The notes under the pieces are model-generated. The model searched no databases, was not told where the DNA came from, and saw nothing but the letters and a program-made list of their open reading frames with translations. From NCBI GenBank assembly GCA_019775845.1, contig JADQAV010000019.1, forward strand, positions 62,001 through 126,000: 64,000 nt of DNA. Direction: 5' to 3'. The position numbers were made by a program, and so were the translations under genes. Shown piece after piece: positions 2,967 through 64,000 of this stretch (its first letter is position 1; every line of letters begins with the position of its first letter). This DNA comes from Myrmaecium sp. VS I D KN 1 (taxonomy: Eukaryota; Ascomycota; Dothideomycetes; Valsariales; Valsariaceae).

Positions 2967-5700
2967 TAACTAGGGTAGCCTATCCGGTTAGCAGACCCGA
3001 GCTAACCGAAACCTGACGGGTTTTTTAGCTAGTAAGGACCCTGGATTTTTAGTTCGGGTTAGGTTTTAGCTGGACGATTTTAGCTTCGGTTAGCTCGGGT
3101 TTTTTTTAGTATACTAAGAATTTTTTTAGAAATATCCGTAGTTTCTTTAATATTTTCTATTTATCCCGCGACCCCTGCGCTATTCGCGGCCCGCCTATAG
3201 TACCTCCCTCTCCCCCCGTCCTTAATCCTCTTAGATTAATTAGCTATTTTAAATATTATTATAAAGCCTTAGATACTTAGACCCCCTTACTTATATTAAG
3301 GGCTAAATCCTATAATACTATACGGGAATATTAATTACCTATTAAAGTAAAAGTTATATAGAAATATATATAAGGGTTTTTATATAAGGTCTATATACCC
3401 CCCTAGTTATAAATAAATTAATCTATAGTATTAACTTATTTCTATCCGTAGTAATCCTACTTAATACTTACCTAGGATATAGAAGCGTCTAAGCGGCCTT
3501 TATAACTTACTATACTTTATATACTTCTAGCTAGGTAATCTATACTCTTATAAATTAGTAGTAGGAGGAGATAGCCGCTATATACTCTTCCTCTTATCTA
3601 ATACCCGAGATAATATAGCTATATTATTATTATCCTCTTTATTACTTTAAAGTATATTAATTATACTATTTACTTCTCGAGTATAGCTACCTACTCTAGG
3701 CAGTAATTCTTTAACCTCGTTATTCTCTAAGCTTTTAGAAAAGAAGAAAATAATAGACTCTAGTTTCTAGCGTACTACCTTCTAGCTATTATTATCTTCT
3801 CGCTCCTTAACTACTTCTTTATAAGAATTACTCTCTTCTAAAGCTTTTCTAGTTATAATATACTAATACTTAACCTATATAAGTATATTAATAGTTATTA
3901 CCGAAAGCCTATTCCTCCTATAATAGTATATATCTCTTCTAATATTAAATACTCTCTTAATATAATTCCTAGACGCGGGAACTACTAGAATATCTCGGGC
4001 TATTTATATAAAGGTAGGAAATTACGGTTTAATTACTACCTAGGACTAGAGAATATATATACTATATTAAACTAGGCTTCGGATATAGCGCTTAGCTATA
4101 GATATACTTTATATATTTTAATCCTTTACTATATATAAGTTTTATATAAGTAACTATAGGTTCGGTTTACTTATAATCCTAGGTTTTATTATAGTAGTAC
4201 TATCCTTTAGCTCTAAAGATAGATACTTTAAGTTATAGTACTTAATAACTTACGTCTAATATAGGTAAGTCTAGCTAATATTATCGTCTTTAAATAAGGA
4301 GTAGTCCTAAAAGTAAGAGAGTTTATCCTTAAAGATAATCTCTAGTAAGAGTAGTACCGATCTCTAGATATCCGCCTAGGAATAATAGTAATATAGCTTT
4401 ACTTTTAACGCCTATAGAGCTTACTAGAAATAACTACCCTATCTATTACTATAATACTATAAGAGGCTTTCCTTATAGCTCTTAATATAGTCGAATAGCT
4501 TATTATATACCTTAAGTACTATATTAATTAATACCCTATAATATTTACCTATATACTAGGTCTACTATTCGAAGAGTCGGAGTATAAAGATAATATACCG
4601 GACTACCTTTTACTTAAAACTTAATAGTATTAGGGTTAAGAGGTTAGGATTATTACGGGCCTATATAAACTCTATAATAATATCCTTTAATAGATAATAT
4701 TAGATATATATTAGAATAAATAAAGACTACTATATCTTAACGTCCTAGAGTAGAGTACGTTTTCGGTACTAGTTTTTTAACTAGAGGTTAAGGAATACTC
4801 TCTCCCGTTCTAGTAAGCTATAGATATATATAGCTAATTTATAAAGCTAAATAGAAAGTTAGGACTAATAACCTTATATATTTCCTTTATATACCTTCCT
4901 ATATATAATTTTATACGAAATTATTATAGTCTCGGGAAGATTATTATACTCTTTATCCTAGTTACGATCTTATTTAGTAGCGAGGTTAATTAAAAGTATC
5001 CTAAGGAATACTTTTATATATAACTAGATTATATATAATATAATATACTCTTATTATACTATCGAATATTAGATTTTCCCTTATATACTTATATATAAGG
5101 CTATTAAGCGTATTACGGAGGGTCTTATTATTTAAGGCGTTATCCGTAGTTATATAGGTAATCCTTTTCTATAATCCTTACTAGCGTAGAACGTAATATA
5201 CTATCCTTCTAAAATTACTATTAGTATAGAGGCTAATAACCTCCTAGAAGCTAGTTATAACTTTTCTTAGATCCTAGTCCTTTATAATAAACGAGCCGAA
5301 GATAGCTAAGAATAATATATTATTAGGACTAGTCTAATAATTTAAAGTAAGACTAATTTTAGTACCGGGGCCTAGGCTATCTAGAATACGACTATTAATC
5401 TAATCTAATAGAGATACTAGTAAGCAGCAGATTAATACTATATAAAATTAATATATACTATAAAAGTAGTATTTATATTACTTACTACGGCTAGGGAGCT
5501 TTATATCGCGACGGAAGAGGTAAAGGAGCTCTTAGAAGATAGGGGACTTAATAATTCTAAAAAGAAGATTATTCTCTATAATAAAAAGAAGAATAAGCTC
5601 CTAAAATCGGTCCTTTAAGAAATTATTTATAAATTAATATATTTAGGGTATATCCTAAATTATTAGTATTAGGGACGCGAATAGAACTAAGAGAAACTAA
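2967..5700 (-). mobile_element. hAT-like DNA transposon fossil
   Basis: The minus strand between ~5,600 and ~3,230 reads, through many RIP stops, as fragments like a hAT transposase: a DNA..N...L catalytic-type segment near 5,150-5,050, followed by the H-hydrophobic-NL segment and a long helical C-terminal half. The end near 2,985 begins CAGACCCGAGCTAACC, a hAT-style terminus, and its reverse complement recurs at ~3,080-3,105, giving a subterminal palindrome. I could not place the distal terminus, so the upper boundary is approximate. The C-terminal dimerisation motif is not clearly readable. Family call is moderate; that this is a dead DNA transposon is fairly safe. Confidence 0.45.
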
Positions 5701-8182
5701 TAGTTTATTATAGAAATAGTTTAATTCGGCTAGGAATACTACCTATATAATAGCTTTAATATATTATTATAGCGTTTATACTAGAGTTAAAAACCTTAGT
5801 ATACTAAATCGCGCTTAAATATTACTTATAGAGTTTAAAAGGAGTCCTATCCGCTACTTAAACCGCTTTCTTAAAACCTATATACTTTACTAATAAAGGT
5901 TTCTAATATTCTAGGTATTTAATTTTAGAGGTATATACCGTTCCCGCCTAATTATATATCCTAATAAATTAGAAGAAAGATATACTTTACTACTAAGTAT
6001 AGAAGGCTATATTATATAAAGGGTTATATATAATATAATTACCGGTTAGGGAGAGGAATACCTCTAGTAGGATAGGAAGTTATATATATCCTATTATAAG
6101 GTCTAGTTCCTCGGATTAAGGGCGCTCTTAAGAAAGATTATAAGATATTTATAACCCGAATAATATCTATAGAGGATACTCTATAACTAATAAGGATAGT
6201 AAATACAGCGACGATAGTAAAAACGATAATATTAATAACTAAGATCTTTTAGGTTCGAGAAGTATCTTAATACGGCTAAACGAGGGATATAAGGGTTTTC
6301 TATAAGGATAGAGAAATAATATTATTATTAGGAATTTAGAAAATTATTCTAGAGATAGCTAAAAGACTAAGAGGTTTCTAAGCTTATACGCTAGAGATAT
6401 AAGAGTTTTACGTAAGATTTAGGAGTTATAGTTACTTTATTATTATTTATAAGTCTATATAGAGTTATTATAGACCCGACTCTTTAAGTCTACTATTATC
6501 TTATTAAGAGGGATATATATATAGCTTAATACCCGTAATAGAATACTCTAAGTATTATTACCTTACTATTACCCGCTGTAAATTCTATAAAAGAACGACC
6601 CTTAATATATCCTTAATATTCGGACCTTCTTACGTAAAACTTTATCTATTAAACTTCCTAACTTAGGTAGCGCTCCGGACTCTTAAAGATATTAAGTAAA
6701 GTATTAGCCGGTTTAGCTATATTACTTATAAGCCCCTCTTAATTACCCGAGGGTATTTTACTAAATAGACTAATCTCTTCGAGTAAAGACTTATTAGTTA
6801 TTATAATATCTATATTAATAGAGCCGCTAAGGCTATTATCTTAAATTATAATTACTTTACTATTATTACCTTAGTTATCTAGCTTAGGGATCTCCTACTT
6901 ATTAAACTATAAGCTATAATTATAATCGTAAATATTAATAATTATATAATTATATTTTATATACTATCGTTTATCTTTCTTATCCTTAATAAATTTTTCT
7001 ATTTCCGCTATTACCTACGTAATAGATAGACTAAAAGATCTATATAGCTATCGGCTAAATATATTTATTCTAGATATTAAATTAGACTACCTAGCCGCGT
7101 AACGCGATACTAGAATATTTATTATTAAATTCTCTAGTCCCGTTTAAAATCTTTCTATTCTACTTAACTCTATAGGTTTAAGTATCGCTTTTTTAACTAT
7201 ACGGGAAATAAGAGATACTAAGCGATATAAGTAGATACTAAATAAGTAAAACTAGGTCGACTTACTTTAAGCAGAATATTTATATAAGGTTTTTAGGCCT
7301 CCTTACTAAAAACCTTTTAGACCTCTTCTTTCTTACGGTCTACCTTTAGCCGGTACTCGGTATTAATATAGTACTTTAAAGCGCGCTAATTAAGCTCTAA
7401 TTATTCTTTTTACTTAAGTTCTTAGTCTATTATCTTTTTTTAAGCGCCCGCCGGACGTCCTTATTACTCTATAACTAATCTAACGCTATATCCTAAAATA
7501 TTATATATATTAGCCCAGCTATTTTCTTATATAGTCTAGACTAGTTAAATTTATTAATAGTTCTCTCTAGTTTTAATAAAGGCCTTTACGGACGTCGTTA
7601 GGTTAAGGAAGCTCTTATAGGTATAGTATAAAGTAATATAATTAGTATTATTAGCCTTCTTCTTACTCTTACGGTTAGTAGTCTCTATAGTTATACTATA
7701 AGTTAATAGGAAGATTAGCTTAAAGAACCTTATATAAAACTCTAATATATATATACCTTATTAATTAAGAGTATCTCTTTATAAACTAACGGTTAGAATA
7801 TTATTATAATATAGTTAAGATCGGCGTTATTAATATTAGTACGTAAGGACGCGCTAGTAGAAAGTAGACTAGCGCGTTTCTCGCGTATATAATAAATATT
7901 ACTAATATATATACCTACCTCCTCTAATAAGGCTCTCTATAAAAAAGCTAAGCTATTAGAATATACTAAGATAGAGAAGAAGCTTTCTAATATAATACTC
8001 TTTAGGGCGGTAAGAGCGAGGTAATTTTAGGGCTCTTATAAGTAACCGTATATATAGACTTTTAATAGGGTCTTAATACGTTAATACACTTATTAATAAG
8101 ATTAATTAGATAAGATTACCTATAAATAGTAAAATAGCTCCCTGTAAATAGTAATTCCCTTAATTATAGTGTAACGCTCCTC
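5700..8182. other. Unassigned RIP-mutated sequence
   Basis: No gene. Short stretches of plus-strand reading (~5,600-6,150) resemble a retrotransposon gag-like region, but no second diagnostic domain follows and I cannot assign a family or boundaries. Confidence 0.3.
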
Positions 8183-9009
8183 TATTAGGAACTACCCTAG
8201 CTGGTAGCTTAAGGAGGTACCAGGTAGCCTTAGGTAGTACTAGGTAGGCTTAGGGGACGAACCTAAGGAGCACTATACCTGCTGGCTAGGGAGCACTACA
8301 CCTACGCGCCGGCCTCCCCCTTTTAGAAGCCTCTCCTCCTGCACCCGCAAATAAACTCCAGCGCAGCCCCCCTCGCAGCCCCTTAACAAGCTCCGTCGCC
8401 AGCCCTCACGCAGGCCCTTTCGCGGGCATTAATGCCCTATAAATGCGAGCCTGGGTGGTGGCCTGCGTAAGGGCCTGCGTGAGGGCCCGCGAGGGGGGCT
8501 GCGAGGGGGCTGCGAGGGGGCTGCGAGGGCCTGCGCGGGAGTAAGAGAGCCTACGAAGGAGCCTACGTGAAGGCACCGAGGGCCTTTAGGGGGTGAGGGC
8601 CTGCGTGGGAGGGTCTGCGTAAGTATTTTAAGGAGAATCCTCCCGAGGCCTTGGCAGCTTGTTCAGGCAAGACGTAGCCTATTAAGGGAAGGCGCAGGCC
8701 CATAGTAGTGCTCCTTAGGTTCGTCCGGCTCAGGTAGCGCTAAGTAGTACTAAGCGGCCCTCTAGGCTAATATAGGCTAGATAGTGCTAAAGAATAGTAG
8801 ACTAAGACTTATATTAATACTAAAGGTAATAATAATTAGTATTAATAGCTGGTTAGAGGAATTCTAGTTATTAGAAGATATAGAGGAGTTTTTTACTATT
8901 TAAAGAAGAGCTAAAGGTAGTATTAGTCTATTAGATCTTTAGTAATTTATCTTATTTAGTATTAGATACTCTTTCCTAATATCTTTAAGACCCTATATAA
9001 ACCCTAATA
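8183..9009 (+). repeat. 5' LTR of the Gypsy fossil (with nested insertion)
   Basis: Matches 12,524-12,851 along its length except for the interruption at 8,255-8,734. The shared blocks include GTAGTACTA, GCTAATATAGGCTAGATA and ATTAGATACTCTTTCC. Confidence 0.75.
8255..8726. mobile_element. GC-rich 472-bp TIR element (MITE-like)
   Basis: A perfect 21-bp terminal inverted repeat starts GGACGAACCTAAGGAGCACT at 8,255 and returns reversed at 8,706-8,726. It is flanked by 8-bp direct repeats GGCTTAGG (8,247-8,254) and GGCTCAGG (8,727-8,734). The one difference is a CA-to-TA change, as RIP makes. The 3' LTR of the host element holds the matching empty site near 12,560. The interior is strongly GC-rich, keeps intact CA/TG, and has nested inverted repeats (GCCCTCACGCAGGCCC near 8,411 against its reverse complement near 8,474; CCCCTCGCAGCCCC near 8,372 against the ~8,490-8,525 CTGCGAGGGGG tandem), so either strand could form a long hairpin. 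No coding capacity. Superfamily is open: 8-bp duplications fit hAT, P, Merlin or Mutator relatives. Confidence 0.8.
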
Positions 9010-12000
9010 TTTTAATCGCTCTTTATAGACTTAATAGAGGGGAATAAGTATACTTAATATAGGATTACTATTATCTACTCCTCCTAATAAGTTAATACTT
9101 AACGATATAAAAGCTAATATAGAAGAACTATAACTATTATAACTACCTTAGATACCTTACCCACCTTAACTACTATAATTATATAATAATTAGATAGAAG
9201 GGGTCTAACTATAATTAGCTAATAAGTTAGAAGATATCCTATAAAGATAATAATAGTTAGATGCCTATATTACTAGATTAAGGCTTATATAGAAGGATAT
9301 TAAAAGGAAGTTAGTAGAACTTACTCTCCTTTATTAGAGGGAGGATAGAGGCAGGGGAAGAGATATTTCTAGAAGAAATAACTTAATTAGACTTAAATAA
9401 GCTTAAAGAGATAGGGAAGACGCTATAATAATCCTATTTATCTAAACCTAAACCTCTATATATATTTAAAAGAGAGAATCGAATTAATTATAATTATTAA
9501 ATTTATAATTATAAGGGATATTATATCTACTTACCGGCAGACTTTAAAACTAAATAATAGAAAGTAGATCTTAGAGTATACTACCTAGTAGAGGTATAAA
9601 GGATACGATAAGAAATCTAAATAAATTTAAAGAAAGAATAGAATTTTATTTAGGAATCTATATAGGAAGACCTAAAGGCCTATATACTCGCTAGTATAGG
9701 GCTATAGGCTTAGTAACTAAGAGAAAGTAAAGAGTAATAGATTAGCTTAAAAGAGCTATTTAAAGGGCTATATAAATACTATCTAAGCTCTTAGGGTATA
9801 TACGACTACTATAAAATAAGATTAAACTAAGATTAGAAGAAAGAATAGCCTTTAAAAATTTATAAGTACCTTAAACCTAGCTATTAAGGAGAAGATATAA
9901 ACTATTAATTATAATATTCTTTAGATACTACTAATAGTAGAGGAGAAAGCTAACTAGCTCTAAAGGACTATAAAATTAATAGAATTATTAAAGTTTAATA
10001 GATTTAAGCGGAAGAGAGATAATAAGCTATATAGGGAAGATAAAATAAGTAAAAAAAGAACTAAAGAAAGCTAAATTAGACTAAGAAGGGATTAGTAATT
10101 TCTAAAGGACTTTATTAAAATTAAATATTATATTTATAGTAAAATAGGCTATCTCTGAAGGACCTATCCTAAAAAGAAGACCTATAAAGAATTAAAAAAA
10201 GATAAAGGGTATAAGAAATAGGATCTTAACTTATTACTTATATTAATCTTTAAGAATTACTAAAAAGGACTAATAAACTAGGATATCCTATTAGAGGAGT
10301 AGTAACTAAACTACTTACTTTAATAGTTTAAATTAGATTAACTTAAATAGAAGTACTAATAGATAATAGTTCCTTTCTTAATATTATTATATTAATACTA
10401 GTAAAACAGCTCGATCTAAAGGTTAAACTAATAATAGGCTTAGAAATAAAATAAGTAACTAGTATACTATTATTAATTTATAGATAAATAGAAGTAAAGC
10501 TTATCTTAAAGGACTATAAGGGCTATAAACTTATATAGGAGGTCCTAATTATTATTATAGAGAGTTAAGCTTATAATATAATTCTAGGAATACTATAGAT
10601 TAAGAAAATTAATCTAAGGATCGATTATAAGAGGAAGACTATTTAACTCTTATTAAAATAGATTAATAAGCGCCTATATAAGAAGATCTTAATAGTTAGG
10701 AGAAAGAGATTCGCTAAAATATTAAAAAAAGAGATATAGATATCTATATCTATATAATTACTAAAATAGAGATGGAATAGCTTTAGATTAAGATATTAAT
10801 TCTAAAGGAATACTAGCTATATATAGATATCTTTTTAAAAGAAGATAGTAAGGAACTACTAGCTTATATATAGTATAACCTAGTAATTAAGTTAATAGAA
10901 TAGAAGATACCGCTATATAGTCCCTTATATAACCTATCTACGGCAGAACTTACTATATTATATTAATAATTAGAAGACTACTTAAAAAGGGGCTAGATTA
11001 TCCGATTAAGATCTTTAGTAAGAGTACTAATTCTTTTTATAAAAAAAAGGACAGTAGTTTATAATTATATATTAATTATAAAGGACTAAATACTATTACG
11101 CTTAAAAATCGCTATCTATTACTATTTATCTAGGAATTATTAGATAGATTAGTAGGGGCTAAGATCTATACCTTCCTAGATTATAGGGATACTTACTATA
11201 GAATTTAAATTAAGAAAGGGGATAAGTAGAAAACTGCCTTTTAAACTAGATATAGTTATTTTAAGTATAAAATAGTCCCTTTTAGCTTAACTAATACCCC
11301 TACTGCATTAGTAGGCCTAATTAATATAATCTATATAATATACCTAGATAATATACTAATCTTCTTATAGAACTAAGAAGAATATATAAAGTATATCTAA
11401 TAGGTATTAGAAAGGCTGAGGGAATATAAGCTATTTATATTATATCTCTAGGAGGGATAAACATAGACTTAAAGAGGCTTAAGATAGTTATAAGATAGCT
11501 AGAACTAATAACTATAAAAGATATAAGAACATTTATTAGATTTATAAACTATTATAGATAATTTATTAAAGGCTTTTTAAGAATAGCTATACTACTAACT
11601 AAATTATAAGTTACTTAAAAAGAGCTAGATAGTACTAATTACTAAAGGAGGCTATAAATAGAGGAAAGAGGAATTAGTTATTATTAATATTAGTCTAGAA
11701 GATAGAATAACCTTCTAGAAATTAAAAGATACTTTTATAAACGTACTAATCCTAGTATACTTTAACCTAACTAAGCCTATATAAGTAGAAGTTAATACAA
11801 AGACTAATTATATTATAGAAGATAATTAAGGTAGAGTATAATTATAATATCTATAATAAAGTGTTATATATAATTAATAATAGTTATAAATAATAGAGGT
11901 ATTAATTAGAAGAGCTAAAAGATCCCTTTAACTTGATTATAGATTTTAATAGCCTATAATAGTTTATAAGGATAAAGACCTTAAATAAAAGGTAGATAGG

Positions 12001-12523
12001 ATAAGTAGAGAGACTCTATAATTATTATTCTACGATTATATATCGGCCAGAGAAGTTAAACCTAATTCATAGCCTATTTAAAAGACTAGATTATATAATA
12101 GATATTAAAGTAGACTTAGAAGAATATAATAGGTTAGTATTATAAGGCTTATAAATATAGCTAAGTATTAGAAAGGTAAATTAGGATAGTATACTAAATT
12201 ATAGTGTAGGATAGTTTGAAATAAAATTAAAAATTAGGATATATATCCTTTAATACTAAGGAATAGCCTAAAAGCCTTAAGAGGAGGTAAAAGTAGCTAA
12301 AGAGGGCTAGATAAGACTAAGAGACCCTATTTTTTCTAAATAAAAAGGAGAAAATCCTTAAGGCAGCTTATAATAATCTAATAGGAGGATACTTTAGATA
12401 TATATATAAGGATATTTAGAAAAGCTAAATAGATAATAACCTAGAATGGAATAAATAAAGAGGTAGAAGAGTATATCTAGGACTACTAAATCTATACTAT
12501 ATTAAAGGCCCAAAAATATAAAC

Positions 12524-12851
12524 TATTAGGAACTACCTTAGCTAGCAGCCTTAGGTAGTACTAAGTAGTCTTAGGTAGTATTAAGTAGCGCTAAGTAGCG
12601 CTAAGCGGCTATCTAGGCTAATATAGGCTAGATAACGCTAAAGAACGGTAGACTAGTACTTATATTAATACTAATATTAATAATAATAGTATTAATAGCT
12701 AATCGGAGGAGTTCTAGCTACTAGGAGTTATAAAGGGTTTTTCTAGTACTTAAAGAAGAGCTAAAGTTGATATTAGGACTTACGTAATTTATCTTATTAA
12801 ATATTAGATACTCTTTCCTTAAATCTCTAAGGCCCTATATAAACCTTAATA
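12524..12851 (+). repeat. 3' LTR of the Gypsy fossil
   Basis: Counterpart of 8,183-9,009 without the nested element; serves as the empty-site reference for the TIR element insertion. Confidence 0.75.
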
Positions 12852-16849: not shown

Positions 16850-18320
16850 AGTACTCCTGAAACTATTTTTTCCGCTCCTAAAAGATTAATTAGATAAGAT
16901 AGCCTATTAATAGTAATTCCGCTGCCTATAAAGAGTAAGACTTATTTAAAAAGAAACTAAATAAGTCTATTATAGTACCTAATCTAGGGCTAGTAAAATA
17001 CTATCTAGGTATTAAGATATCTGGAAATAGAGATTAGAGATATAAAATAAATTATTTTATCGTAATTAATATATATAATAGAAATAATTAGTAAGTTTAA
17101 GAAGAGATTAAATTAAGTTTCTAGAGCTAGGAATATAACTGAAAAGTTAATATAGATATAAATAGCTCTGATAAAGCGCTAATTAGTTTATATTAAAATA
17201 AATCGGTAATCTAATTTATCTAGCTATTAAAACTAGATAGGATATAGCATTTACAGTTAATTAATGCGCCATATATATAGTAAATCTAGATAGAAATTTA
17301 TTAAATAGGATAAAGCTGGCTAAGCATATAAGGAGTTATAAAAGATTTTAGAGAAGTATTCTATAGGTAATAAATCAGCCCTAGTCTACTTTATTATCCT
17401 AGTAGTTATCTGGATTACTTAGATAATCTATCTAGATACAGATAGGCTATATAGGGAGGCCTTATTTATAAACCTCCCTGTAGTAATGCCGAGCTCCTAG
17501 TATAGGGGCTAGGCTTCTAGCTTCTTACAGAGTTTTCTATTAATTTAAAATTAACTTGGTGGAACCGGTTGGCCAGTTCTAGGCCTAAGTCTAGGCCTTA
17601 GTTAATTCTAAACCATCTAATCCTGGGCCCCGCTTAATTCCAGATCAGCTGGTTCTTTACCTTAGTTTCTAGCATTATAAGCATCTTATAATACCTTAAT
17701 TTAGTGGTTTTGAAATATTATAACCATATTATAATACCTTAGTTTTAATAAAATTACTAGAGGGTACTAAACTATAATTAGAAATATCTAAATAGTACTG
17801 TAGAATTAGGGCTAGTATATTACTACTCTAAATATACCTAATTTAACATCTTAATTTAATTAGCTATACTAATTCAGATTAGGGGGGTGATTATATATTT
17901 AGAAAAAGCACTACTAGCTATTTATTTCTATTAGGAAATATATATCTAATCAGTTAGTCTAGTACCCTATTAAACTTAGTAGCCCTGTTAAGATGTAAAG
18001 CTAAATATATAGTATTAAAAGAGGCTATAAACTAATATATATAGCTAGTCAGCTTACTTAAACCACTAGATATATATAGAAATAGTAGTAATAATATATT
18101 AATAACTGATAACTAATTATCTATTAGATTAGTAAATATTACTGAATACTACGCTAAATCTAAATGTATAGATATATAGTTATATAATATTATATAGTCA
18201 GGGATCATATAACGTCTGTTTTAGAAGCCTAAAGCTTATAGAACAAACAGCTGATTCATTTATAAAAGGGCTAGATAAATTGAAAACTAAAAGGTTCATA
18301 AACTACCTGGAAATGAATTT
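16850..18320 (+). mobile_element. Copia (Ty1)-type pol fossil
   Basis: The plus strand near 16,960-17,300 matches the C-terminal part of a Copia reverse transcriptase (the NLG-x-VKYYLGI-type segment, then the IKTR-DIAF-VN segment). Near 17,900-18,310 it matches the Copia RNase H end (YLFLLG..., SKHIDI-like and ADIFTK-like regions). Between the two lies ~0.5 kb of unrelated repeat, the left arm of unit B. LTRs were not identified. It is broken in many places. It retains more CA/TG than neighbours, so it may be a later arrival or less RIPed. Confidence 0.6.
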
Positions 18321-18958
18321 AATAGATAAATACTTACTATTATAAGATTATAATAGACAGATAATTACTATTATATAATTATAGGATACATAGACTAAAA
18401 ATTGCTGTTATAAGACTATAATAGACAAGTATTTATAATTATATAATCATATAATAGGGCAGAAAAATAATTGCTTTTATATTACTATAATGAATAAATA
18501 ATTACTATTATAATAGAAATGACTAATATTATAACCCTTAGGGAGTATATTAAATCTAAGGCATCATAATATAGTTATTATATATCAAAACTATCAGATA
18601 AAGGTATTATAATATACTTATAATATGCTAGAAATATCAGGAGCTAAGACACAGAACCAGCTAATTTATAATTAAGGGGGGCCTAAAATTAGAGAATCTA
18701 AAATTAAATACGGCCTAGAATCAGATAATTTAAATATAAATAAGCCCTAGAGTTAAGCCTAGAACTAGCTAACTAGCTCTATCTAGTTAGCCTTAAATTA
18801 AGAAAAAACCCTATAAAGGTTAAAGCCTAGCCCCTTACACTAGGAGCTTAGCGTTAGTATAATAAGACCTAAAAATAATACCTGCCTATAAACTTAGATA
18901 GAACTATATAAGCGATCTAGATAACTATTAAGGTAATAAAACAGACTAGGGCTGATTA
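17300..18958. repeat. Inverted-repeat unit B (copy of unit A)
   Basis: The left arm 17,300-~17,765 shares its first ~300 bp with 284-575 in the same orientation. It returns inverted at ~18,545-18,958: TAGCTGGTTCT-, CTAGCATATTATAA- and GGGCTTATTTATA-type blocks match in reverse complement. The outermost ~85 bp of the left arm lack a partner on the right. Copia RNase H sequence sits between the arms, so either this unit captured or split the Copia fossil, or two opposed repeats inserted independently. Confidence 0.55.
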
Positions 18959-19239
18959 AAAGTCTAGACTATAGTACTATATAATTATATAAGGAGATAT
19001 ATTATATTAAGAGAATAAAGACTATTTAACTCGGTTTAATATATACTAAGTAGTTTATACTATAATAAATATTTAACTTATTAATACTACTACTACTCCT
19101 AGAGATAGATATATAGTTTATACTTAAAAGTTTTAGATTAGTGCGCGGGGGCTACCTACTACTTATAAACTTTAGTAAATATTTTAAAAGATATATTAAT
19201 AACGAAAGACTCTTTAGGCTAGCTATCTATATAGATTTA

Positions 19240-62501: not shown

Positions 62502-64000
62502 ATGTTCGGTCCGTGGATTGCGACGTGGGCCTGGATCAAGCGGAGCATCCCGCGCAAGTTCCATTTCCCGCGGCGGAGGTTTAATTTCATCACGCTGCAT
62601 TGTATGTTGGGCCCCGTCCGTTGCGCGGGTGTCGCACGACTTTAGCACCGGCGCTGACTGCTGTCTTCGTCCAGATATCTACATGATCAGCATGACGATC
62701 ATCGGTTCAATCCTGCTGTACGCCGCCGGCGGGCTGCGCTACATCGACGCCCTCTTCTTCGCCAGCGGCAGCGTGACGCAGAGCGGGCTCAACACGGTCG
62801 ACGTCAACAAGCTCAAGCTGTACCAGCAGGTCATCCTGATGATGATCACCTGCATGTGCACCCCGATCTTCATCAACACCTTCGTCGTCTTCGTCCGGCT
62901 GTACTGGTTCGAGAAGCGGTTCCAGCACGTCGTGCGCGAGGCTCGCAACCTGCGGAAGACCAAGAGCCGCTCCATCTCGCGCAGCCAGGCGAAGGAGGAC
63001 CGCGACATGGATCGGGAGGAGCGCGGCGTCGCCGGTCGGGAGATCCGGGTGCTGCGGGCGGAGAACGGCCACGCGCACGGTCGGCCGCTGCCGAACGCGA
63101 CGGATATCCCGAGTCATGCGGATGGCACGGAGGAGAAGAGGATGAGCTCGGAGAATTCGGCGTCGCCGAGCGAGGCCGATGAGCATCAGGAAGGCGAGGC
63201 TAAGAGCGAGCTGGTCAGCGAGTATCCGTCTTTCCGCCGAGACATCATGTTCGCGGACGAAGTGGGCGATGCGCCGGTGCGGCTCCCGGAGCGCAGGACG
63301 ACCGATCAGCACATTGCGTTTGTGCAGAATCAGCGAAATCCGAAGGACAAGGGTACCTTTCGCATCCCCGGGCCGCGCGACTATGACCGTGGTGAAGTGC
63401 CTCGGCGGCTGGAGGAAGGTGAAGAATTGAACCGTGTGATCTCCGGGGACGGACCTGCAGAGTCAGAGGCGGGAGCCGGACGAGGCCATCGTGGAAGTAT
63501 GGAGGAGCCTATGGAGGAAATGAATGCGGATGACCATCCGGTGAAGCACAGCATCACCTTCGACGAGCCCGATCACCCTCGCATGCGAAACAGGATCTCG
63601 TCCGCCTTCACGCTCCACCGGAAGAATAGCGAGGACAACGAACGCATGACATTGCGCCAGCGCGCCCGCACGAAGACGCTGGCTAGCTTCATGACCGCGC
63701 GCAGCCAGGAGCGCGACCCGATGCCCTACCTTAGCTGGCAGCCTACCATCGGCCGCAACTCGGCCTTCATCGATCTCTCGGAGGAGCAGCGGGAGGAGCT
63801 TGGAGGGATCGAGTACCGTGCGTTGAAGACGCTCGCTTTCATCCTCGTCCTTTACTACGTCGGCTTCCACCTGTTTGGCATGCTGTGCCTGTTGCCCTGG
63901 GTCGTGCGGGACAAGCGCTACAGCGACATCGTCCAGTCGGACGGGGTGAGCTCGGTGTGGTGGGGGTTCTTCACGCCCGCGTCCATGTTCAACGATCTCG
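62502..64000 (+). CDS. trk1: Trk1-type high-affinity potassium transporter (5' part, truncated by window end)
   Basis: Exon 1 62,502-62,601, 73-bp intron, exon 2 from 62,675 to beyond 64,000; about 475 residues seen. MFGPWIATWAWIKRSIP..FNFITLHYIYM is a typical fungal Trk1 beginning (first 17 residues shown). The first hydrophobic hairpin (~34-57) leads to the first pore loop with TQSGLNTVD (~68-76), the SGLN signature of the Trk/Ktr selectivity filter. A second membrane helix (~90-112, VILMMITCMCTPIF) is followed by ~300 residues of hydrophilic, Ser/Arg/Glu-rich loop, the long cytoplasmic loop characteristic of fungal Trk. Membrane segments resume at ~440 (LKTLAFILVLYYVGFHLFGM). Plasma-membrane K+ uptake by family. 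The remaining pore loops lie outside the window. Confidence 0.93.

Follow-up and report, generated by a model that had tools for sequence, protein, structure and literature searches.

The presence of a short GC-rich element within an LTR heavily damaged by RIP raises the question of what the element is and how far it was itself reached by the process that ruined its surroundings. The window, i.e., the whole analysed stretch of 64,000 nucleotides, belongs to contig G000:C9 of a genome of 25,660,682 bases in 66 contigs. An earlier sequence-only reading had described in it a 472-bp insertion with perfect 21-bp TIRs and 8-bp duplications, possibly a new MITE family, that was spared by RIP. The structural part of this description has been borne out (Table 1): the TIRs are 100% complementary over 21 nt, the TSDs agree at seven of eight positions, and the two copies, GGCTTAGG and GGCTCAGG, do differ by the CA-to-TA change pointed out for the left one.

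Table 1. Features of the element (copy C9 of family 1) and of the repeat that carries it, in window coordinates
Feature	Position	Strand	Remarks
Non-autonomous element with TIRs, copy C9 of family 1 (MULE-type MITE, very probable assignment)	8255..8726		472 bp; perfect TIRs, 7/8 TSD, at most 87% identity to sisters
Left TIR, 21 bp	8255..8275	+	C-to-T changes at CpA compared with sisters
Right TIR, 21 bp	8706..8726	-	Adjoins gap of ~22 bp compared with sisters
Left TSD GGCTTAGG	8247..8254		TA at the position of CA in the right copy
Right TSD GGCTCAGG	8727..8734		7/8 identical to left TSD
Left arm of internal GC-rich inverted repeat	8368..8427	+	60 nt, 82% complementary to 8461-8520
Right arm of internal GC-rich inverted repeat	8461..8520	-	Pairs with 8368-8427
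Region with copies of 11-12-bp GC-rich unit, GGCCTGCGTGAG-like	8460..8623	+	
LTR-like repeat copy 1, RIPed, split by element	8182..9009	+	Direct repeat with 12,523-12,851
LTR-like repeat copy 2, without element	12523..12851	+	Direct repeat with copy 1

The element has a GC content of 0.63 compared with 0.32 and 0.28 in its flanks, carries 8.9 CA+TG per 100 bp versus 1.0 and 0.8 in the adjoining 500 bp, and reaches a (CA+TG)/(AC+GT) index, used here as the RIP index, of 1.24 versus 0.10 on either side. The AT-rich block at 1-22,900 minus the element contains 0.93 CA+TG per 100 bp and positions 23,001-64,000 contain 12.2, and the density in the flanking LTR is more than 90% lower than in the unRIPed part of the window. 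A 19-bp TIR pattern has been found, with up to three mismatches, at three sites in the window versus 0.13 expected from shuffles, two of them being the ends of the element and the third a lone three-mismatch site at 63501. The strong hairpin proposed earlier is also predicted by folding C9 as single-stranded DNA, which yields -140.6 kcal/mol compared with -95.9 (sd 4.9) for 100 shuffles (z -9.1). Near the right end, ~22 bp between two related motifs are missing from C9 in the alignment with its sisters.

The partner LTR had been taken as proof of the empty site. It does align without the element, but a gap of ~10 columns lies at the insertion point, which in the LTR is a run of short near-repeats, so that the partner supports an empty site and leaves its exact base unfixed. 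Between the two LTR-like repeats, at 11,080-11,210, a stretch resembling a Ty3/Gypsy-type reverse transcriptase has been noticed by eye. The AT-rich block holds a second, less RIPed stretch at 17,231-18,740, with 17,345-17,766 and 18,532-18,985 forming long inverted arms that are 73-78% complementary.

Further copies of this family, termed family 1, have been sought in the genome by DNA and TIR searches and by inspection of the ends, and all counts are lower bounds. At least 13 TIR-bounded elements have been found, at least 11 of them short (259-619 bp: C9 472, C18 537, C12 563, C11 619, C5 530, C8 469, C54 494, C64 434, C19 285, C10 501 and C56 259 bp), with TIRs of 21-47 bp, and at least two long (C25, 4,759 bp; C66, 13,763 bp). 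The earlier description had been made to depend on other copies in this genome, and the 12 found besides C9, with an 8-bp TSD in 10 of the 11 short copies (eight at 8/8, two at 7/8), confirm that the element belongs to a genuine TIR family of multiple copies with 8-bp TSDs. Over all 13 copies found, nine pairs are exact, three agree at 7/8 (C9, C54, C66) and C19 lacks a TSD; under equal base use, the chance per copy is 1.5e-5 for an exact 8-bp TSD and 3.8e-4 for a near-exact one. As in the TSDs of the window copy, the mismatched base of the C66 pair is a TG or CA that now reads TA. A 26-bp degenerate TIR pattern occurs at no fewer than 24 places genome-wide, all within the 13 elements, versus none in the reversed control. 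Such numbers of paired ends, and 12 exact or near-exact TSDs in 13 copies, leave a chance inverted repeat or a non-mobile GC island as a practically negligible explanation. A RIP-tolerant TIR pattern has yielded no further pair in the genome. Six of the 26 rows of the TIR search have been dropped as unpaired places with three mismatches, where the reversed control gives 18 places (C5:388396, C5:980748, C10:444746, C10:1352580, C29:425051, C57:581494). Identity over aligned columns amounts to 80-91% within the group C9/C18/C12/C11 and 83-95% within C5/C8/C54/C10. All 11 short copies are putatively non-coding and bounded by TIRs, as expected of MITEs, and both a constant TSD length and a partner sharing the TIR have been found.

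The two long copies, C25 and C66, possess the family TIR and the 8-bp TSD length, and both are degraded, so that their autonomy belongs to the past. Their RIP index is 0.03 for C25 and, taken over two overlapping halves, 0.04 and 0.05 for C66, compared with 1.06 and 0.91, then 1.17 and 1.26, in the respective flanks. No open stretch longer than 104 residues exists in any frame of C25, C66 contains no ORF that reaches 120 aa (four ORFs found in its locus, L047, belong to the left flank), and no intact autonomous copy is present among the family copies found in the genome. Nevertheless, a read-through frame of C25 with X at the stops matches PF10551 (MULE) at E 7.2e-6, the only Pfam family listed for it at E up to 1, and C66 matches the same family at E 8.9e-4, with scores of 26.8 and 20.1 bits that both lie under the curated cut-off of 27.6 bits. 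A genome-wide PF10551 search lists five loci, C25 and C66 not being among them; the C25 reading aligns with one of these, the C23 locus, at 37.5% over 357 aa, which passes the cut-off (38.1 bits), and the other four have no match to it at E 0.01. Between C25 and C66, the readings agree at 59%, 64% and 59% over 157, 36 and 117 aa, and the transposase DNA is 73-79% identical. The TIRs agree by subgroup between MITEs and long partners, as in the C64 MITE, which matches the ends of C25 over 62 bp at 84% on one side and 45 bp at 91% on the other. Only the ends are common to both, and plain deletion within the long partners does not account for the MITEs.

Since long partners with the same TIR carry a RIP-ruined MULE transposase, the element is grouped with the MULEs, based on the match to a MULE-type DDE transposase (in RIPed frames, under the cut-off) and a TSD within 8-11 bp, which supplies the TIR-sharing partner and the superfamily that the sequence-only reading had hoped for. 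A hAT-type MITE would account for the 8-bp TSDs, which are the rule in hAT and occur in 12 of the 13 copies, but the transposase regions of both long partners match only MULE in Pfam at E up to 1, Dimer_Tnp_hAT being absent from these matches, and the family ends start with GGAY, unlike hAT ends, which usually start with CAG or TAG. We consider a hAT origin very unlikely. The KDZ transposase domain PF18758 has no match in the genome, and the same holds for 14 of 14 control genomes. Within the C25 element, a stretch of ~230-270 bp (L081, ~3170-3400) recurs at 31 other places with 69-89% identity; its homologue in C66 measures 68 bp versus ~311 in C25, which suggests a short repeat nested in the element. 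One MULE-domain locus, G000:C10:2612416 (L087), is enclosed by an AT-rich inverted-repeat structure of 2.5 kb that is low in complexity and has TATATATA flanks.

The supposed sparing of C9 by RIP has to be judged against its relatives. The element is rich in intact CA/TG when compared with its flanks, but the sisters C18, C12 and C11 carry 12.4-13.1 CA+TG per 100 bp, and relative to their majority C-to-T changes on either strand are found at 15 of 56 CpA/TpG sites of C9 (27%; columns gapped in C9 are left out, superseding an earlier 15/67, and with four sequences per group changes common to two or more copies are missed). Cytosines in other contexts have changed in 11 of 239 cases (CpC 4/109, CpG 3/59, CpT 4/71), which constitutes a CpA-to-TpA bias (Fisher p 4e-6), and the sisters themselves show CpA conversion at 2/62, 3/67 and 1/63 sites (1.6-4.5%). 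The element has thus not simply escaped, as had been claimed; RIP-type change went on after its insertion, as had also been claimed, which explains the TSD mismatch, but this change was weak. A CA/TG density far above that of the flanks would look much alike if the LTR had been RIPed beforehand and the element, unprotected, had arrived late. Conversion at 15/56 sites in C9 versus 6/192 in the three sisters, and a TSD pair that differs by CA/TA, both point to RIP-type change after insertion and render this late arrival rather unlikely; an intermediate course, in which the LTR was already partly RIPed when the element inserted, may also hold.

Alternatively, the light marks in C9 may have spilled over from the RIPed LTR and not reflect RIP of the MITE itself, in line with the conversion of 7 of 15 sites lying within 60 bp of either end versus 8 of 41 in the centre. 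This difference is non-significant (p 0.085), lesser but significant marks are present in other copies with unRIPed flanks (C5 8/52, C54 10/55, and 10/42 in C64 of family 2, a second MITE family described below), and the RIP of the long partners stops within ~50-100 bp of their ends, which makes spill-over doubtful as the source. No significant CpA conversion has been detected in C8, C10, and the family-2 copies C62 and C8, and in C28 of family 2 it is marginal (5/44, p 0.03). The proposed tabulation of the RIP index inside versus outside has given its clear contrast in C9, but the other ten short copies lie in flanks with indices of 0.81-1.49; as RIPed flanks surround C9 alone (1/11), the comparison is informative for this copy only, and the LTR insertion as evidence for sparing is a sample of one. 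MITE pairs that are 90-96% identical over ~450-510 columns have indices of 0.69-1.71 and are largely intact. Three DNA-methylase loci are present in the genome and, together with RIP, suggest that it belongs to a filamentous fungus.

We regard the window element as very probably a MULE-derived MITE, with RIP after the insertion that was strong on the LTR and light on the element. Longer Mutator-like elements have its TIR and subterminal sequence, and their transposase would act on the ends of this short gene-less element, which duplicates 8 bp of target on insertion and in this case entered an LTR of a retroelement. RIP would then, or still, have mutated the LTR because of its being a long repeat, and the light damage to the MITE may be due to its lack of homology to other LTR copies and to relatives that are short (~260-620 bp) and mostly non-collinear over long stretches. 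Partners of the C25/C66 type, both dead now, presumably mobilised the MITE, and its shortness is the likely cause of the weak RIP in C9.

Resistance of MITEs to RIP through shortness is already in print. According to passages in two papers, RIP is poor below ~500 bp and hardly acts below ~200 bp, with a smaller effect on MITEs (PMC9970103, PMC4522978); in a passage of a third, MITEs have been excluded as lying under the RIP length threshold (PMC4994206). In Zymoseptoria tritici (Mycosphaerella graminicola), RIP is likewise stated to affect short TIR elements less than long ones (PMC9970103), and the MITE passages of PMC4522978 mention one family with 8-9-bp TSDs and place in one group families whose TIR is the same and whose interiors differ. 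Compared by description, these MITEs resemble family 1 in all these respects, and differ in that they are said there to lie mostly outside large RIP-affected regions, whereas C9 lies inside one. For MULEs, of which Hop and Mutyl are fungal examples, PMC6446971 gives TSDs of 8-11 bp and tabulates TIRs of 22-99 bp in several fungal groups. The 8-bp TSD, the family TIRs and the remains of a MULE-type transposase in C25 and C66 conform to this, but the transposase is never intact here, and TIRs of 21-47 bp are shorter than those of MULEs, for which lengths of hundreds of bases are described as common.

The GC-rich interior of family 1 is an array of an 11-12-bp GC-rich unit. Allowing one mismatch, GGCCTGCGNNAGGGCCTGCG occurs at 70 places genome-wide versus one in the reversed control, and the number of units exceeds the maximum of 200 shuffles in 10 of the 11 short copies, the exception being C56 with a single unit. 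A scan of 12 interior-match loci and five MULE loci has been made for further candidates. Family 2 (TIR GGAAATTGATAATCGTAC; seven TIR pairs and one lone end) is filled with the 12-bp unit and has 8-bp TSDs that are identical at 8/8 in all four copies examined. Family 3 (L010, L014, L017; 848-966 bp, ends TACGGAATAC...GTATTCCGTA) carries it as well, with exact 5-bp direct repeats in two of three copies by eye, or, in an alternative reading, a TA duplication. For family 4 (L009, L018, L012) no TIR pair has been found, and one end is recognisable in two loci. The 12-bp unit is common to MITEs with unrelated TIRs, one family apparently differing in TSD length, and its occurrence in elements with differing ends and apparently differing TSD lengths is the least ordinary result of this analysis. 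Weaker or nested candidates have been set aside (650-2831 in L010, 1349-1762 in L011, and pairs flanked by TATATATA within L087, which is AT-rich). At L012 (G000:C5 around 79,872), the array borders an AT-rich RIPed stretch with indices of 0.00-0.29 alongside, and this neighbourhood looks partly RIPed beside the similar L009. A MITE minisatellite of P. gingivalis (PMC4596501) and Tetris of Drosophila virilis, a TIR/foldback element (PMC4079207), reportedly contain internal tandem repeats. They share with the present elements a tandem repeat within TIRs, and differ in that here one 12-bp unit spans families with unrelated TIRs.

Variation in array length might itself weaken RIP. In an exploratory comparison, in which the copies are non-independent and are those at hand, the longest ungapped run with at least 90% identity to any other family copy correlates with CpA conversion over 12 copies (rho 0.65, p 0.023; 0.71, p 0.014 minus C9). 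Five copies with runs below 200 bp, a cut chosen post hoc, show 10/272 converted sites and seven with longer runs 53/354, exceptions being C18 (run 243, 2/62) and family-2 C8 (run 265, 3/43). The longest exact match is 66 bp among family-1 and 90 bp among family-2 copies. For closely placed repeats of N. crassa, passages of PMC4858203 put the perfect homology required at ~155 bp for RIP to occur at all and at 220 bp for it to be substantial, the number of mutations tracking length from 220 to 520 bp. As a long shot, the 12-bp array could be a module of non-autonomous elements moved by different transposases and kept as an aid under RIP, by means of out-of-register copies that would lack the few hundred collinear bp that RIP needs, such that large elements die and array-bearing miniatures persist.

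The family is best read as one of MULE-derived MITEs in which RIP is attenuated, not absent, and it offers a compact natural record of the length dependence of RIP within one genome. With identical transposon ends, elements of 4.8-13.8 kb are wrecked and those of 0.3-0.6 kb nearly intact, and in the small copy within a wrecked LTR the damage is measurable against sisters. If register-breaking were true, it would give MITEs a structural means of countering a defence that senses homology.
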